The position numbers and the translations under genes are program-made. This document shows, piece after piece, positions 16,343-52,625 of a DNA stretch of 64,000 nt. This DNA comes from Olleya namhaensis (GTDB taxonomy: Bacteria; Bacteroidota; Bacteroidia; Flavobacteriales; Flavobacteriaceae). The stretch's first letter is position 1; every line of letters begins with the position of its first letter. Under the pieces are notes generated by a model that was not told the origin of the DNA, made no database searches, and was given only the letters and a program-made list of their open reading frames with translations. The DNA is taken from the NCBI RefSeq assembly GCF_900114005.1, contig NZ_FORM01000002.1, forward strand, positions 1-64,000, written 5' to 3'.

Positions 16343-16415
16343 CACGGGCGGAGAGACTCGAACTCCCGACACCTGGTTTTGGAGACCAGTGCTCTACCAA
16401 CTGAGCTACGCCCGT
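16343..16415 (-). tRNA. tRNA-Trp (CCA anticodon)
   Basis: A 73-base cloverleaf: acceptor ACGGGCG/CGCCCGT, D arm GCTCAGTTGGTAGAGC, anticodon stem CTGGT/ACCAG with loop CTCCAAA (anticodon CCA), T loop TTCGAGT. The 3' CCA is not encoded. It lies between tuf and secE, as in many bacteria. Confidence 0.96.
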
Positions 16416-16426
16416 AAATAAAAACC

Positions 16427-16452
16427 AAGACACCACGCGAACGAAGTGTCTT
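16427..16452 (-). other. Hairpin between tuf and tRNA-Trp
   Basis: AAGACAC and GTGTCTT form a 7-bp stem around a 12-base loop, 26 bases after the tuf stop. No T run follows, so an mRNA 3'-end stabiliser or a tRNA processing site is more likely than a terminator. Confidence 0.4.
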
Positions 16453-16477
16453 AGCTTTATATTTTATAAACTATAAA

Positions 16478-17665
16478 TTAGTCTAAAATTTCAGTTACCT
16501 GACCTGCACCAACTGTTCTACCACCTTCACGTATAGCGAAACGTAATCCAACATTCATTGCGATCTTTTGGATTAACTCAACATGAATTGTTAAGTTATC
16601 TCCAGGCATAACCATCTCTACTCCTTCAGGTAACGCAATGTTTCCTGTTACGTCAGTTGTACGAACATAAAACTGAGGACGGTAGTTATTATGGAATGGA
16701 GTGTGACGTCCACCTTCTTCTTTTTTAAGGATATAAACCTCAGCTTTAAATTTAGCGTGTGGTGTTACAGAACCTGGCTTAACAATAACCATACCTCTAG
16801 AGATTTGAGACTTCTCAATTCCTCTTAATAAGATACCAGCGTTATCTCCAGCTTCTCCTCTATCTAATATTTGACGGAACATTTCAATTCCTGTAATAGT
16901 AGATGTTAATTTTTCAGCACCCATACCAATGATCTCAACTGGATCTCCAGTATTAGCTACACCAGTTTCGATACGTCCAGTTGCTACTGTACCACGACCT
17001 GTAATAGAAAATACATCTTCAATTGGCATTAAGAAAGGCTTGTCCATATCACGAACTGGCTCTTCAATCCATGCATCAACTTGTGCCATTAATTCCATTA
17101 CTGTATCAACCCATTTTTGCTCACCATTTAAAGCTCCTAATGCAGAACCAGAAACTACAGGTCCGTTATCACCATCATACTCATAGAATGATAATAATTC
17201 TCTAACCTCCATGTCTACTAACTCTAAAAGCTCTTCATCATCAACCATATCCACTTTATTTAAGAATACTACGATTCTTGGGATACCTACCTGACGACCT
17301 AATAAGATGTGCTCACGAGTTTGTGGCATTGGACCATCCGTTGCAGCTACTACTAAAATAGCTCCATCCATTTGTGCAGCACCAGTTACCATGTTCTTAA
17401 CGTAATCGGCGTGACCTGGACAATCTACGTGTGCGTAGTGACGATTTGCTGTTGAATATTCTACGTGTGATGTATTAATTGTAATACCTCTTTCTTTTTC
17501 TTCTGGAGCGTTATCAATCTGATCGAAAGATTTTGCTTCTGATAAACCTGCATCAGCTAATACTTTAGTAATAGCAGCAGTTAAAGTTGTTTTACCGTGA
17601 TCTACGTGTCCAATTGTACCAATATTTAAGTGTGGTTTTGAACGATCGAAAGTTGCCTTTGCCAT
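16478..17665 (-). CDS. tuf: Elongation factor Tu
   Basis: 395 residues. It delivers aminoacyl-tRNA to the ribosome. G motifs are [11 protein letters not shown] (about residues 18-28), the switch-I region [20 protein letters not shown], and NKVDM; domains 2 and 3 follow, ending in [15 protein letters not shown]. It is embedded in the conserved tRNA-Thr-Tyr-Gly-Thr-tuf-tRNA-Trp-secE array. Only this copy is visible here. Confidence 0.99.
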
Positions 17666-17733
17666 GTTTTAATAATTTAATCTTAGTTATATAATAATAT
17701 TAGTGTATTCTTAATTTTTTATTCTTTATTCAG

Positions 17734-17805
17734 AGCCAATGACGGGAATTGAACCCGTGACCTCTTCCTTACCAAGGAAACGCTCTACCCCTGAGCTACA
17801 CCGGC
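17734..17805 (-). tRNA. tRNA-Thr (GGT anticodon)
   Basis: A 72-base cloverleaf with acceptor GCCGGTG/CATTGGC, anticodon loop TTGGTAA (GGT) and T arm ACGGG/CCCGT. It is the last tRNA before tuf. Confidence 0.95.
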
Positions 17806-17816
17806 TTAAATATTAG

Positions 17817-17889
17817 AGCGAGAGACCGGGTTCGAACCGGCGACATTCAGCTTGGAAGGCTGACGCTCTACCAACTGAGCTACTCTCGC
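17817..17889 (-). tRNA. tRNA-Gly (TCC anticodon)
   Basis: A 73-base cloverleaf with acceptor GCGAGAG/CTCTCGC, anticodon stem TCAGC/GCTGA and loop CTTCCAA (TCC), T loop TTCGAAC. Eleven bases separate it from tRNA-Thr(GGT). Confidence 0.96.
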
Positions 17890-17942
17890 AATTATTTAAA
17901 ATCCTTTGTCGTCTAAAATTAACTTTTCTAATTAAAAAAAAG

Positions 17943-18024
<82 letters not shown>

Positions 18025-18100
18025 AATTTTAAACTTTTCACTCTATTAAAGAACTTGTACAAAGTTAAAATAATTTATAATTTATTTTAACTTTATTTTG

Positions 18101-18174
18101 AGCCGATGGAGGGACTCGAACCCACGACCTGCTGATTACAAATCAGCTGCTCTAGCCAGCTGAGCTACATCGGC
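18101..18174 (-). tRNA. tRNA-Thr (TGT anticodon)
   Basis: A 74-base cloverleaf with acceptor GCCGATG/CATCGGC, anticodon stem GCTGA/TCAGC and loop TTTGTAA (TGT). It is the first tRNA of the cluster, about 45 bases after the predicted transcription start. Confidence 0.95.
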
Positions 18175-47153: not shown

Positions 47154-48269
47154 TTACAATTTGTCAATTACAGTGTTTAAGCGTTTAGTAATATCTTCAA
47201 TACTACCAATACCATCTACTCCAAAATATTTATTTTGTGCTGCGTAGTAGTCTTTTAAAATTGCAGTTTCGTTATAATAAACTTTAATTCTATTTCTAAT
47301 AATAGACTCGTCAGAGTCATCTTTTCTTCCACTAGTTTTCCCACGTTCTAATAAACGTTGTACTAATACCTCATCTTCAACTTCCAAAGCAACCATTGCG
47401 CTAACTTCAGAATCTTTAGCAGTCATTATTTTATCTAATGCTTTAGCCTGTGTTTCGTTTCTTGGAAAACCATCAAAAATAAACCCTTTAGCCCCAGCAT
47501 TACGTTCTACCTCTGCTTCTAACATATCGATAGTAACTTGGTCTGGCACTAAATGTCCTTTATCCATGTAAGATTTAGCTAATGTTCCTAAAGCCGTCTG
47601 ATTTTTGATATTATATCTAAAGACATCTCCTGTAGATATGTGTACTAAATCATACTTCTCTTTTAAAAAATTTGCTTGAGTTCCTTTTCCTGCACCTGGA
47701 GGTCCAAATAGCACTAAATTAGTCATGTGTTGTGTGGTTTTTAATTGATATACTGCTGGTAAGTCCCTTCCTAATCCATCATAGTCTAATCCGTAGCCTA
47801 CAATAAATTTATTAGGTATTTCTATACCAACATAATGCAACTTAAAATCTTTTTTGTAAGCTTCTGGCTTATAAAATAAGGTTGCTATTAATAATTGTTT
47901 TACGTTTTCGTTTTCAAAAATGCGGTGTACTTCAACCAACGTGTTACCAGTATCTATAATATCCTCTAAAATAACTACGGTACGTCCGGTCAAATCTTGT
48001 GTTAAACCTATTAAGCGCTGAATATCTTCTGTAGATTTCACACCTTCATAAGACGCTAATTTAATAAATGTAACCTCACAAGGTTTTGGATATTTTTTTA
48101 CAAAATCACTAACCAACATAAACGATCCGTTTAAAATCCCAATAAACACTGGCACTTCGTCTCCTAAATCGTTAGCCACTTGATTAGCCATTCTTGTTAC
48201 TGCATCATCTAATTCTGTTTCAGAAATAAATGGCTTAAACTGTTTGTCGTGAAGCGTAATAGTTTGCAT
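47154..48269 (-). CDS. adk: Fusion of hypoxanthine phosphoribosyltransferase and adenylate kinase
   Basis: 371 residues in one frame. Residues 1-~178 are a type-I phosphoribosyltransferase with the PRPP loop LEDIIDTGNT (101-110) and the HPRT-type motif IPNKFIVGYGLDYDGLGR (151-168). Residues 182-371 are a complete short-form adenylate kinase: P-loop GPPGAGKGT (189-197), NMP-binding region, DGFPR, and a short LID (RGKTSGRKDD) lacking the zinc/insert form. M182 could serve as an internal start for free Adk. The fusion couples purine salvage to nucleotide phosphorylation and occurs in many flavobacteria. Promoter TATATTTG at 48294-48287. Confidence 0.95.
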   Translation of the reverse strand: MQTITLHDKQFKPFISETELDDAVTRMANQVANDLGDEVPVFIGILNGSFMLVSDFVKKYPKPCEVTFIKLASYEGVKSTEDIQRLIGLTQDLTGRTVVILEDIIDTGNTLVEVHRIFENENVKQLLIATLFYKPEAYKKDFKLHYVGIEIPNKFIVGYGLDYDGLGRDLPAVYQLKTTQHMTNLVLFGPPGAGKGTQANFLKEKYDLVHISTGDVFRYNIKNQTALGTLAKSYMDKGHLVPDQVTIDMLEAEVERNAGAKGFIFDGFPRNETQAKALDKIMTAKDSEVSAMVALEVEDEVLVQRLLERGKTSGRKDDSDESIIRNRIKVYYNETAILKDYYAAQNKYFGVDGIGSIEDITKRLNTVIDKL

Positions 48270-49548: not shown

Positions 49549-50031
49549 ATGAACAAAGTAGCAGTAATAATGGGAAGCAATAGCGATATGCCAGTCATGC
49601 AAGACGCTATAGATATTTTAAAAGAATTTAAAATTGAAATTGAAGTTGATATTGTTTCGGCACATCGTACTCCAGAAAAATTATTTGACTTTAGTAAAAA
49701 TGCTCATAAAAGAGGTATTAAGGTAATTATTGCAGGAGCTGGAGGTGCAGCACATTTACCAGGCATGGTAGCTTCATTAAGTCCTTTACCAATTATTGGT
49801 GTCCCTGTAAAAAGCAGCAACTCTATTGACGGGTGGGACTCAGTATTATCCATACTTCAAATGCCAGGAGGTGTTCCTGTAGCCACAGTGGCTCTAAACG
49901 GAGCAAAAAACGCAGGTATACTAGCTACTCAAATTATTGGAGCTTCTGATCCAGCGGTATTGGATCAAGTTATTGCTTATAAAGAGGGTTTAAAATTAAA
50001 AGTAGAACAAGCTGCAAAAGATATTAAATAG
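49549..50031 (+). CDS. purE: N5-carboxyaminoimidazole ribonucleotide mutase
   Basis: 160 residues, class I PurE. The substrate loop GSNSDMPVM (9-17), the catalytic HRTP (42-45 region) and the AGGAAHLPGM segment (64-73) are present. It isomerises N5-CAIR to CAIR. It is the last gene of the purKE pair and is followed after nine bases by a terminator. Confidence 0.98.
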   Translation: MNKVAVIMGSNSDMPVMQDAIDILKEFKIEIEVDIVSAHRTPEKLFDFSKNAHKRGIKVIIAGAGGAAHLPGMVASLSPLPIIGVPVKSSNSIDGWDSVLSILQMPGGVPVATVALNGAKNAGILATQIIGASDPAVLDQVIAYKEGLKLKVEQAAKDIK

Positions 50032-50035
50032 CTAA

Positions 50036-50122
50036 AAACAGAAAACCCCAACTAGGTTGGGGTTTTCAATCGCTATTAATCTTTTTATATATGAGGTAAA
50101 TAAACCCACACCAAAAAAACTT
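50036..50122 (-). ncRNA. Putative small RNA, unit 1 of 3
   Basis: Predicted minus-strand transcript of about 87 bases. Promoter TTG (50158-50156), N21, GACCTTTG (50134-50127). The RNA has a U-rich start, a small 5' hairpin (TGGGT/ACC-CA with a bulge, 50092-50108), an A-rich linker, the conserved word AATAGCGAT (50077-50069) and a 12-bp terminator stem (50041-50067) followed by T5. The same stem read on the plus strand terminates purE. It has no open frame. Confidence 0.6.
50041..50067. terminator. Bidirectional terminator after purE
   Basis: GAAAACCCCAAC and GTTGGGGTTTTC pair perfectly around TAG. It ends purE on the plus strand and the small-RNA unit 1 on the minus strand. Confidence 0.85.
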
Positions 50123-50229
50123 ATATCAAAGGTCTTCTTAATCCTTCTGTTTTGACAATTAACAAGTCAATTTTTCAACGTTTTCGGTAAAATGCAAAAA
50201 TAAACGTTTAAAAGCGAAAATTAAATAAA

Positions 50230-50313
50230 ATAAAAAAGCCCCAAAATAAATTTGAGGCTTCCATCGCTATTATTTTTCTAGTCAATGTGTATAAAACACA
50301 TATCAAAAAAACA
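50230..50313 (-). ncRNA. Putative small RNA, unit 2 of 3
   Basis: Predicted minus-strand transcript of about 84 bases. Promoter TTG (50346-50344), N18, CATTTTTG (50325-50318). A 6-bp 5' hairpin ATGTGT/ACACAT (50285-50301), A-rich linker, AATAGCGAT (50271-50263), then a terminator stem AAGCC-C-CAAA/TTTG-A-GGCTT (50236-50260) and T6. The distance from the -7 box to the conserved word is 47 bases, against 50 and 49 in units 1 and 3. No open frame. Confidence 0.6.
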
Positions 50314-50427
50314 GATACAAAAATGTCACTTTTATTAAAATAACAACATATTTGTTGAGAAACATTTTTTCTTTTAGATTAAAGGAGATAATATTAAGAC
50401 GAGTAGCAGAAAAACATGAAAATAAGC

Positions 50428-50513
50428 AAAAAAAAGCCTCAGAAGAATCTGAGGCTTTTTATCGCTATTAATCAATAATTTTTAAGTGAGTAACCAGCTC
50501 ACGGGAAAAAATC
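50428..50513 (-). ncRNA. Putative small RNA, unit 3 of 3
   Basis: Predicted minus-strand transcript of about 86 bases and the best of the three. Promoter TTG (50549-50547), N21, TATTTTTG (50525-50518), a full consensus match. A 5-bp 5' hairpin GTGAG/CTCAC (50486-50502), A-rich linker with AAAAATTATTGATT, AATAGCGAT (50469-50461), then a 13-bp perfect terminator stem (50431-50460) followed by T8. The M3 peptidase gene starts on the other strand 46 bases beyond its -33 element. Confidence 0.65.
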
Positions 50514-50594
50514 AAGGCAAAAATAGACATTTATATAATTAAAACGCAATTAAAACAGTAATTTTAACATCAAATATTTTATTTCACCATTATA

Positions 50595-52625
50595 ATGAAT
50601 ATACTACTAAATACTTTCGATACTAAATACAACACGGCTCCTTTTGAATCTATAAAAAATAAAGACTATAAACCCGCCATTTTAAAACTTATTGAAGAGG
50701 CTAAAAAAGATATTGACGCCATAGTAAATAACACAGCTGCCCCAACGTTTGAAAACACCATTGAAGCGTTAGAGTTTTCTGGACAACAACTAGAACGTGT
50801 TACTAGTATATTCTTCAATCTAAACTCAGCTGAAACTAATGACGAGATTCAGAAGATAGCACAAGACATCTCTCCTATTCTAACAGAGTTTGGAAATGAC
50901 ATTACATTAAATCAAGCGTTGTTTACAAAAGTTAAAACGGTTTTTGACTCTAAAGACAGTTTAGATATAACAACAGAACAAAATACATTATTAGATAAAA
51001 AATACAAAAGCTTTTCCAGAAACGGTGCAAACTTATCTGAAGACAAAAAACTAAAATTAAGAGCTATTGACAAACAGTTAGCTAGTCTTAAATTAAAGTT
51101 TGGAGAGAACTTATTAGCAGAAACTAATGCTTTTGAAATGCTACTAACTAAAGAGGAGGAAGTCTCTGGCCTACCTGAAGGCGCAAAAGAAGCTGCCAAG
51201 CAACTAGCAGAAAGCAAAGACAAAGACGGTTGGCTAATAACATTAGACTACCCAAGCTACATACCTTTTATGACGTATGCTGACCGTAGAGATCTACGCG
51301 AAAAATTAGCAAAAGCTTCTGGAGCTAAAGGTTTTAAAAATGATGCTTTAGACAATCAAAACAATGTATTAGATATTGCAAGATTACGTTTTGAACGTGC
51401 TAATCTTCTTGGGTATAAAACGCATTCGCACTTTGTACTAGAAGAGCGCATGGCAGAAACGCCAGAAAAAGTAAACTCATTTTTACAGGACTTATTAGTA
51501 AAAGCTAAGCCTGCTGCGGAACGTGAGTTTGCCGAATTAGAAAATTTCGCAAAAGAACTTGATACTATTGATCAATTAGAAAAATGGGATTCAGCTTACT
51601 ACTCTGAAAAATTAAAACAAAAACTATTTAATTTAGATGACGAGCAACTTAAGCCCTACTTTAAATTAGAGAATGTTATTGATGGTGCTTTCCAAGTGGC
51701 TAACAAATTATTTGGACTTCAATTTAAAAAAATTGACACCATAGATAAGTATCATGAAGATGTTATGACCTATGAAGTTCTAGATGAGAACAATGATTTA
51801 GTCTCAATATTCTACGCTGATTTTTTCCCTAGAGCAGGAAAACGAAATGGTGCATGGATGACTTCTTACAAGCCTCAATTTATTAAAGATGGTATTAATG
51901 AAAGACCACACATCTCTAATGTCTGTAACTTTACGAAACCAACCAAAAGCAAACCATCCTTATTAACGTTTAATGAAGTAACTACTTTGTTTCATGAGTT
52001 TGGTCATGGATTACATGGTATGCTTGCAAATACTACTTACCCAAGCTTATCTGGAACAAGTGTATTTTGGGATTTTGTAGAGCTACCAAGTCAAGTGTTA
52101 GAAAACTGGTGTTATGAAAAAGAAGCTTTGGAGTTATTTGCAAAACACTACGAAACTGGAGAAGTGATCCCTATGGATTTAGTTGCAAAAATTAAAGAGA
52201 GCGCGACGTTCCAAGAAGGGATGCAAACCTTAAGACAGTTAAGCTTTGGTCTTTTAGACATGAGCTGGCATGGTATAAATCCATCTGATATTACAGATGT
52301 AAAAACACACGAATACAAAACGTTTGAAGACACTAACTTATATCCTGACGTAAAAGAAAATTGTATGAGCACTGCTTTTGCACACATCTTTCAAGGCGGA
52401 TACTCTTCTGGGTATTATAGCTATAAATGGGCGGAAGTTTTAGATGCTGACGCATTTGACTATTTTAAAGAAGAAGGTATTTTTAATAAAGACGTAGCAA
52501 AAAAATTCAAGGACAACGTGTTGTCTCAAGGCGGTACAGAAAACCCAATGGTATTATACAAACGTTTTAGAGGTCAAGAACCAAAACCTGAAGCGTTATT
52601 AAAACGTGCCGGACTGATTAAATAA
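50595..52625 (+). CDS. M3 family metallopeptidase (oligopeptidase A/dipeptidyl carboxypeptidase type)
   Basis: 676 residues, full M3A length, no signal peptide, so cytoplasmic. The zinc motif H467EFGH471 (in TLFHEFGHGLHGML) has the third ligand Glu in the following helix (FVELPSQVLENW, about residue 496). It degrades peptides from protein turnover or from exported-protein leaders. Its terminator follows at 52649. The helical N-terminal half shows the typical APFESIKNKDYKPAILKLIEEA start. Confidence 0.94.
   Translation: MNILLNTFDTKYNTAPFESIKNKDYKPAILKLIEEAKKDIDAIVNNTAAPTFENTIEALEFSGQQLERVTSIFFNLNSAETNDEIQKIAQDISPILTEFGNDITLNQALFTKVKTVFDSKDSLDITTEQNTLLDKKYKSFSRNGANLSEDKKLKLRAIDKQLASLKLKFGENLLAETNAFEMLLTKEEEVSGLPEGAKEAAKQLAESKDKDGWLITLDYPSYIPFMTYADRRDLREKLAKASGAKGFKNDALDNQNNVLDIARLRFERANLLGYKTHSHFVLEERMAETPEKVNSFLQDLLVKAKPAAEREFAELENFAKELDTIDQLEKWDSAYYSEKLKQKLFNLDDEQLKPYFKLENVIDGAFQVANKLFGLQFKKIDTIDKYHEDVMTYEVLDENNDLVSIFYADFFPRAGKRNGAWMTSYKPQFIKDGINERPHISNVCNFTKPTKSKPSLLTFNEVTTLFHEFGHGLHGMLANTTYPSLSGTSVFWDFVELPSQVLENWCYEKEALELFAKHYETGEVIPMDLVAKIKESATFQEGMQTLRQLSFGLLDMSWHGINPSDITDVKTHEYKTFEDTNLYPDVKENCMSTAFAHIFQGGYSSGYYSYKWAEVLDADAFDYFKEEGIFNKDVAKKFKDNVLSQGGTENPMVLYKRFRGQEPKPEALLKRAGLIK

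Follow-up and report, generated by a model that had tools for sequence, protein, structure and literature searches.

Tandem putative small RNA genes beside purE in Olleya namhaensis and their relatives across the Flavobacteriaceae

The gap between purE and an M3-family peptidase gene in Olleya namhaensis, a marine member of the Flavobacteriaceae, carries three related units (A, B and C) in tandem on the minus strand. It lies in a stretch of 64,000 nucleotides, hereafter the window (positions 1 to 64,000 of contig NZ_FORM01000002.1, assembly GCF_900114005.1). We propose that the units are probably genes of a new family of trans-acting small RNAs (sRNAs), which would pair with their targets through an exposed UAAUAGC segment. 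Three tandem sRNA genes had already been put forward in an initial annotation of the window, and this is still the best-supported reading: the units are present in all nine Olleya congeners (A, B and C in eight, A and C without B in one), their pairing is kept, and they occupy the same site in other genera.

Layout and conservation of the units in Olleya

Direct reading of the sequence places the three units at spacings of 198 and 194 bases, in agreement with the initial annotation; the core word AATAGCGAT stands on the minus strand at 50461-50469, 50263-50271 and 50069-50077 in units A, B and C, respectively. In every unit a sigma-A-like -7 box precedes a 5′ stem-loop, after which come the word AATAGCGAT and an intrinsic terminator; the terminator of unit C sits immediately beyond the purE stop. 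The order of parts described initially is confirmed, with the exception of a separate U-rich start: the predicted folds of B and C pair the U-rich 5′ end with the A-rich linker, forming a longer 5′ stem-loop that leaves TAATAGC open. The description of the box as nAnnTTTG is the right common one; only the box of unit A is a perfect TAnnTTTG, and those of B and C differ at the first T. The boxes resemble the sigma-A box described for Flavobacterium psychrophilum, TAnnTTTG at -12 to -5 (PMC9723704), and boxes of the TTTG type are found at the distance expected in the homologous loci inspected, one list of which required a box.

Within the window, the minus strand has the word AATAGCGAT in the three units and nowhere else, and the plus strand has a single copy, inside purE; out of 125 terminator-like clusters, TAATAGCGA is present at units A, B and C only. 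A mobile repeat was considered and rejected, a DNA search of the organism's own genome having returned the locus itself (once per strand) and one weak match elsewhere.

The predicted RNAs fold better than shuffled sequences (table 1). None of 200 shuffles folded as well as units A, B and C, and seven units from three genera gave fold z-scores of -3.9 to -7.2. For the seven positions of TAATAGC the mean unpaired probability over 19 B and C units of Olleya is 0.66-0.98, compared with 0.32 over the whole RNA; the flanking positions are less exposed, with values of 0.43 for the next G and 0.34 for the preceding base. Across the nine Olleya genomes with three units, to which all identity figures for the genus refer, the core is invariant (1.0) and the transcribed parts of A, B and C are 0.95, 0.83 and 0.82 identical, compared with 0.46 and 0.53 for the inter-unit spacers; the promoter stretches of A, B and C reach 0.74, 0.85 and 0.57. 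The conserved, accessible seed that characterizes a trans-acting sRNA is found here as an invariant core, with TAATAGC open in B and C and less so family-wide.

Table 1. Positions in the window of the three units, their promoter and core elements, and the neighbouring genes.
Feature	Position	Strand	Remarks
sRNA unit A	50428..50513	-	predicted RNA ~86 nucleotides (nt), +1 at 50513; -25.8 kcal/mol, fold z -4.8
sRNA unit B	50232..50313	-	predicted RNA ~82 nt, +1 at 50313; -23.5 kcal/mol, fold z -5.2; Olleya only
sRNA unit C	50035..50122	-	predicted RNA ~88 nt, +1 at 50122; -29.3 kcal/mol, fold z -5.2
-7 box TATTTTTG, unit A	50518..50525	-	TTG at 50547-50549
-7 box CATTTTTG, unit B	50318..50325	-	TTG at 50344-50346
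-7 box GACCTTTG, unit C	50127..50134	-	direct sequence reading
Core TAATAGCGAT, unit A	50461..50470	-	extended core ATTATTGATTAATAGCGAT
Core TAATAGCGAT, unit B	50263..50272	-	sequence; conservation in Olleya
Core TAATAGCGAT, unit C	50069..50078	-	sequence; conservation; predicted unpaired
purE (AIR carboxylase)	49549-50031	+	convergent neighbour; Pfam AIRC 7e-63
M3-family peptidase gene	50595-52625	+	divergent neighbour; Pfam Peptidase_M3 3.5e-139

Elsewhere in the window, a single open reading frame (ORF) at 47154-48269 on the minus strand encodes an apparent fusion of hypoxanthine phosphoribosyltransferase and adenylate kinase, as judged by eye from its translation.

Spread, copy number and covariation

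Covariance models built from the units, a check proposed with the initial annotation, recover homologues with kept pairing in relatives. Seven B and C units, and no A unit, went into model R1, which matches the A units of ten Olleya genomes (E-values 4e-8 to 8e-7; window A 8e-7) and, in two other genera, the single unit present (3e-5), with non-unit matches beginning at E = 0.002. Model R2 was built from 36 family-wide units, including window A and no B or C; it matches window B at E = 5e-6 and C at 2e-5, the next match being to the opposite strand of the A terminator at 0.0009.

Synteny beside purE is widespread. R2 finds a unit at E ≤ 1e-3 in 51 of the 109 regions downstream of purE that were searched, each from a different genus (47/99 and 4/10), and all 53 matches in these loci are antisense to purE. 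The figure of 51 rests on the model search, since regular expressions overlooked certain units and also returned false ones; 33 of these loci were included in R2 and 18 were not, and a few of the weaker matches, such as L207 and L212, are without the exact core. The genomes with purE number 147, and the 38 outside the 109 are the window's own, two with one unit each (G023 and G017) and 35 others. A scan of named genomes with the extended core pattern placed 53 of 58 stretches beside purE or the M3 gene, the closest loci being 83% identical to the window locus over the aligned parts. A class-wide R2 search found the family in three of 395 genomes, including the window's own, all of them Flavobacteriaceae; with strict filters and ten candidates scored per genome, this search is insensitive to spread.

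The number of putative sRNA genes between purE and the M3 gene varies from one in many Flavobacteriaceae to three in Olleya. In the loci inspected, after a few false sites had been removed by eye, one unit is seen in Algibacter, Tamlana and Flaviramulus, and two in Lacinutrix, Mesoflavibacter, Oceanihabitans and some Bizionia; Olleya has three, apart from one metagenome-assembled genome with two. Lacinutrix and Mesoflavibacter combine types A and C, and a C-type unit is also found in some Bizionia. Type B probably arose by local duplication, because it has its 5′ part in common with C and is seen in Olleya only. In five loci of the Algibacter, Tamlana and Flaviramulus type (L261, L265, L282, L314 and L297), a palindrome like TTATGCATGCATAA was noticed by eye upstream of the -7 box, which suggests a candidate transcription-factor site; none was seen at the Olleya units.

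The covariation-like stems reported initially are upheld with 48 distinct homologous units. A fitted alignment of 53 model-aligned units (the 48 distinct ones, of types A, B and C) was drawn from a search of 28 loci, with matches at E ≤ 1e-6 only. In this alignment 90.9% of pair cells are paired, compared with 78.3% in shuffles and 37-59% when the partners are slid, and 154 cells are changed on both sides, compared with 51 in shuffles. Such two-sided changes affect ten of the 12 terminator pairs and four of the seven 5′ hairpin pairs; the outer U/A helices are weakest, with 67-84% of cells paired. An unfitted MAFFT alignment was made of 36 units (33 of the 44 listed units, together with unit A, L013 and L014), among which the length of the 5′ hairpin varies. 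On this alignment RNAalifold found the terminator, with seven of ten pairs compensated.

Proposed mode of action and competing explanations

Each gene would be transcribed from its own sigma-A-like promoter and stopped at its own intrinsic terminator, giving a non-coding RNA of about 82-88 nt. The RNA would consist of a 5′ stem-loop, a conserved segment with UAAUAGCGAU, in which UAAUAGC is predicted to be open, and a terminator hairpin. Pairing through UAAUAGC appears the most likely mode of action because each unit combines its own promoter and terminator with a strictly conserved open segment, while the 5′ domains diverge. The open segment would base-pair with target mRNAs in trans, perhaps at translation starts, and the divergent 5′ stem-loops may set stability, partner or target preference.

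Several observations weigh against this proposal. The promoter stretch of unit C (0.57) is conserved no better than the spacers, and the stretch upstream of unit A is itself conserved (0.79), which may perhaps reflect the M3 gene's own promoter. Weaker model matches fall on the terminators on the plus strand, at E = 0.0009 and 0.003. Outside Olleya the structural picture is softer: in 36 one-per-genus units TAATAGC is less clearly open (0.54-0.71, with 0.40 for the whole RNA), and the 5′ hairpin taken alone is weak, with a mean z of -1.3 (35 of 36 below zero, seven of 36 below -2). RNAalifold predicts the terminator alone, and no 5′ hairpin, on both the MAFFT and the fitted alignments. The search for targets adds to these points. 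Over ten Olleya genomes the complement of the core TAATAGCGAT, ATCGCTATTA, occurs 214 times (29 of them in units), against 167 for the reversed control. No site in a 5′ untranslated region (UTR) was common to most genomes among 88 loci inspected, at least three of which are units; four of the genomes were covered almost completely in this inspection, the remaining six by three sites each. A search of the ten genomes for complementary 12-mers and 10-mers also gave no site common to most. The best lead to a target is the block GCTATTAAYCAACC, which complements the core and stands about 25 bases before the start of a predicted membrane-protein gene in four of the five Olleya genomes that carry it (L406, L407, L408 and L409, upstream of position 1501). 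The gene has no Pfam match above the cut-off and is absent from the window's genome, and its 5′ UTR site is only a lead.

Copies of the core elsewhere bear on both the pairing proposal and its main competitor. The 14-mer TTGATTAATAGCGA has 37 occurrences in 149 genomes, compared with six for the reversed control; the maximum is four per genome, and 122 of the 149 genomes have none. Out of 29 sites inspected, seven are purE units, 12 lie directly before terminators elsewhere and ten are neither. A general terminator-adjacent motif was considered and rejected on account of this rarity. An AcrB-type efflux gene lies upstream in six of the 12 terminator-adjacent sites and in a further locus with a variant core (L088). 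In these seven loci the core, (UU)GAUUAAUAGCGA or a variant, is situated in the 3′ UTR, directly before the terminator of the AcrB-type gene. In five of them (L124, L130, L139, L148 and L088) aspS follows downstream, the remaining two being L134 and L138; the AcrB-type/aspS pair was checked with Pfam in L130 and by eye in the others. In L130, L134 and L148 a hairpin can be seen by eye before the core. The AcrB-type sites look like 3′ UTR modules that share the core of the units.

It is conceivable, and we put it forward tentatively, that one UUAAUAGC-type seed is used family-wide by the purE-linked sRNAs and by 3′ UTR modules, recurrently those of AcrB-type genes beside aspS. If true, this would amount to a shared-seed regulon in which sRNA paralogues differ in their 5′ domains and which operates in Olleya in the absence of an RbpB-like RRM protein.

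Two side observations concern the same core. The core UUAAUAGC with a terminator was seen in the 3′ UTRs of genes for putative exported proteins in Winogradskyella and Ulvibacter (L276 at 4839 and L315 at 7028). At about position 1501 on the minus strand of L133, from a Flaviramulus-like genome, a possible short RNA gene combines a TATATTTG box and a terminator with an exact complement of the core; it could be a sponge or chance.

The strongest alternative holds that the RNAs are real and bind a protein, with core and terminator as the recognition site. Titration of the protein or stabilisation of 3′ ends would then be their function, and any mRNA pairing would be incidental. The recurrence of core and terminator at mRNA 3′ ends (the 12 sites away from purE), the minimal enrichment of complementary sites and the suitability of multiple tandem copies for titration all speak for it, and protein titration remains a serious rival. 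For a general 3′-end signal the copies are few, and the core letters stay constant while the surrounding stems change. A search for RRM proteins (PF00076), the class known from Bacteroides, gave no match in the window's genome while a Bacteroides control was positive; Hfq was not searched for. On balance we consider protein binding unlikely.

Much less probable is a reading of the units as terminator relics, repeated and partly bidirectional, that insulate purE from the M3 gene and give no stable RNAs. The terminators are indeed the strongest structural part and the one part found by RNAalifold; the purE stop is closely followed by that of unit C, and weak model matches fall on the opposite strand. 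Yet the 5′ part and the core are conserved as well as the terminator, the matches are all antisense to purE, TTTG-type boxes accompany the loci inspected, and insulation needs no three terminators in the same direction. Least credible of all are very short translated ORFs or leader attenuators: the hairpin of unit A contains a six-codon frame (GTG AGC TGG TTA CTC ACT TAA), but by eye the alignments show it is not kept in units B and C or in many other genera, no listed ORF of at least 50 amino acids lies in the gap, and beyond the last unit comes purE in antisense, which leaves no gene to attenuate.

Relation to known RNAs and significance

The initial annotation knew of no named family with this layout, and Rfam agrees: at gathering score neither the gap nor any of seven homologous loci is matched. 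Five matches were obtained in the window as a whole, all of them to tRNAs; five tRNA genes lie on a single strand at 16343-18174 (minus). A relation to Flavo-1 (RF01705), described as a structured RNA candidate of Bacteroidetes (PMC2864571), had been suggested and finds no support. The units share that general description with Flavo-1, but its model has no match in the window at gathering score and is absent from 38 weaker hits around the gap (E up to 5). The covariance model of 6S-flavo (RF01685) does not match the units either. No purE-linked flavobacterial sRNA was found in the literature searched, and a prior description may exist. As far as Rfam and the texts searched go, the family is new, while its kind is already known.

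The nearest parallel is with FopS and GibS of Bacteroides, described as multicopy paralogous sRNAs with primary-sigma promoters, a common single-stranded seed and an intrinsic terminator (PMC11697453). According to the same account, FopS sRNAs bind SusC-type mRNAs close to the start codon and have the RRM protein RbpB as a partner. Both sets would be paralogous sRNAs of Bacteroidota with a promoter, a shared seed and a terminator, features that in Olleya are predicted from sequence. In FopS and GibS, as described, the seed is at the single-stranded 5′ end and the terminator follows, whereas the Olleya core comes after a 5′ stem-loop. The Olleya units also differ in forming tandem copies at one syntenic site, in a genome with no RRM_1 match, and in having no Rfam match, the presence of FopS in this copy of Rfam being unchecked.

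Within the Flavobacteriaceae, sRNAs of F. psychrophilum have been named Rfp1-89, 85 of them new, in a study whose main text is silent on purE (PMC9723704). There, Rfp18 is reported to be genus-wide; its third stem-loop is the part predicted to pair, and two metalloprotease mRNAs are reduced when Rfp18 is deleted. The Rfp RNAs and the predicted Olleya RNAs are alike in being small RNAs of Flavobacteriaceae. Compared by published description only, Rfp18 has a third stem-loop whereas the Olleya units have two hairpins and an open core, and these modelled two-hairpin folds argue against the units being Rfp18. The units may have their Flavobacterium orthologue among the 85 new Rfp RNAs.

To our knowledge, post-transcriptional regulation in the Flavobacteriaceae is little mapped. 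The purE locus would offer a syntenic sRNA locus in about half of the genera sampled, a natural series of one, two and three copies, and a defined candidate seed. In marine strains that are not pathogenic, this copy series and candidate seed would allow the targets of the RNAs to be mapped and the role of sRNA duplication to be tested directly.

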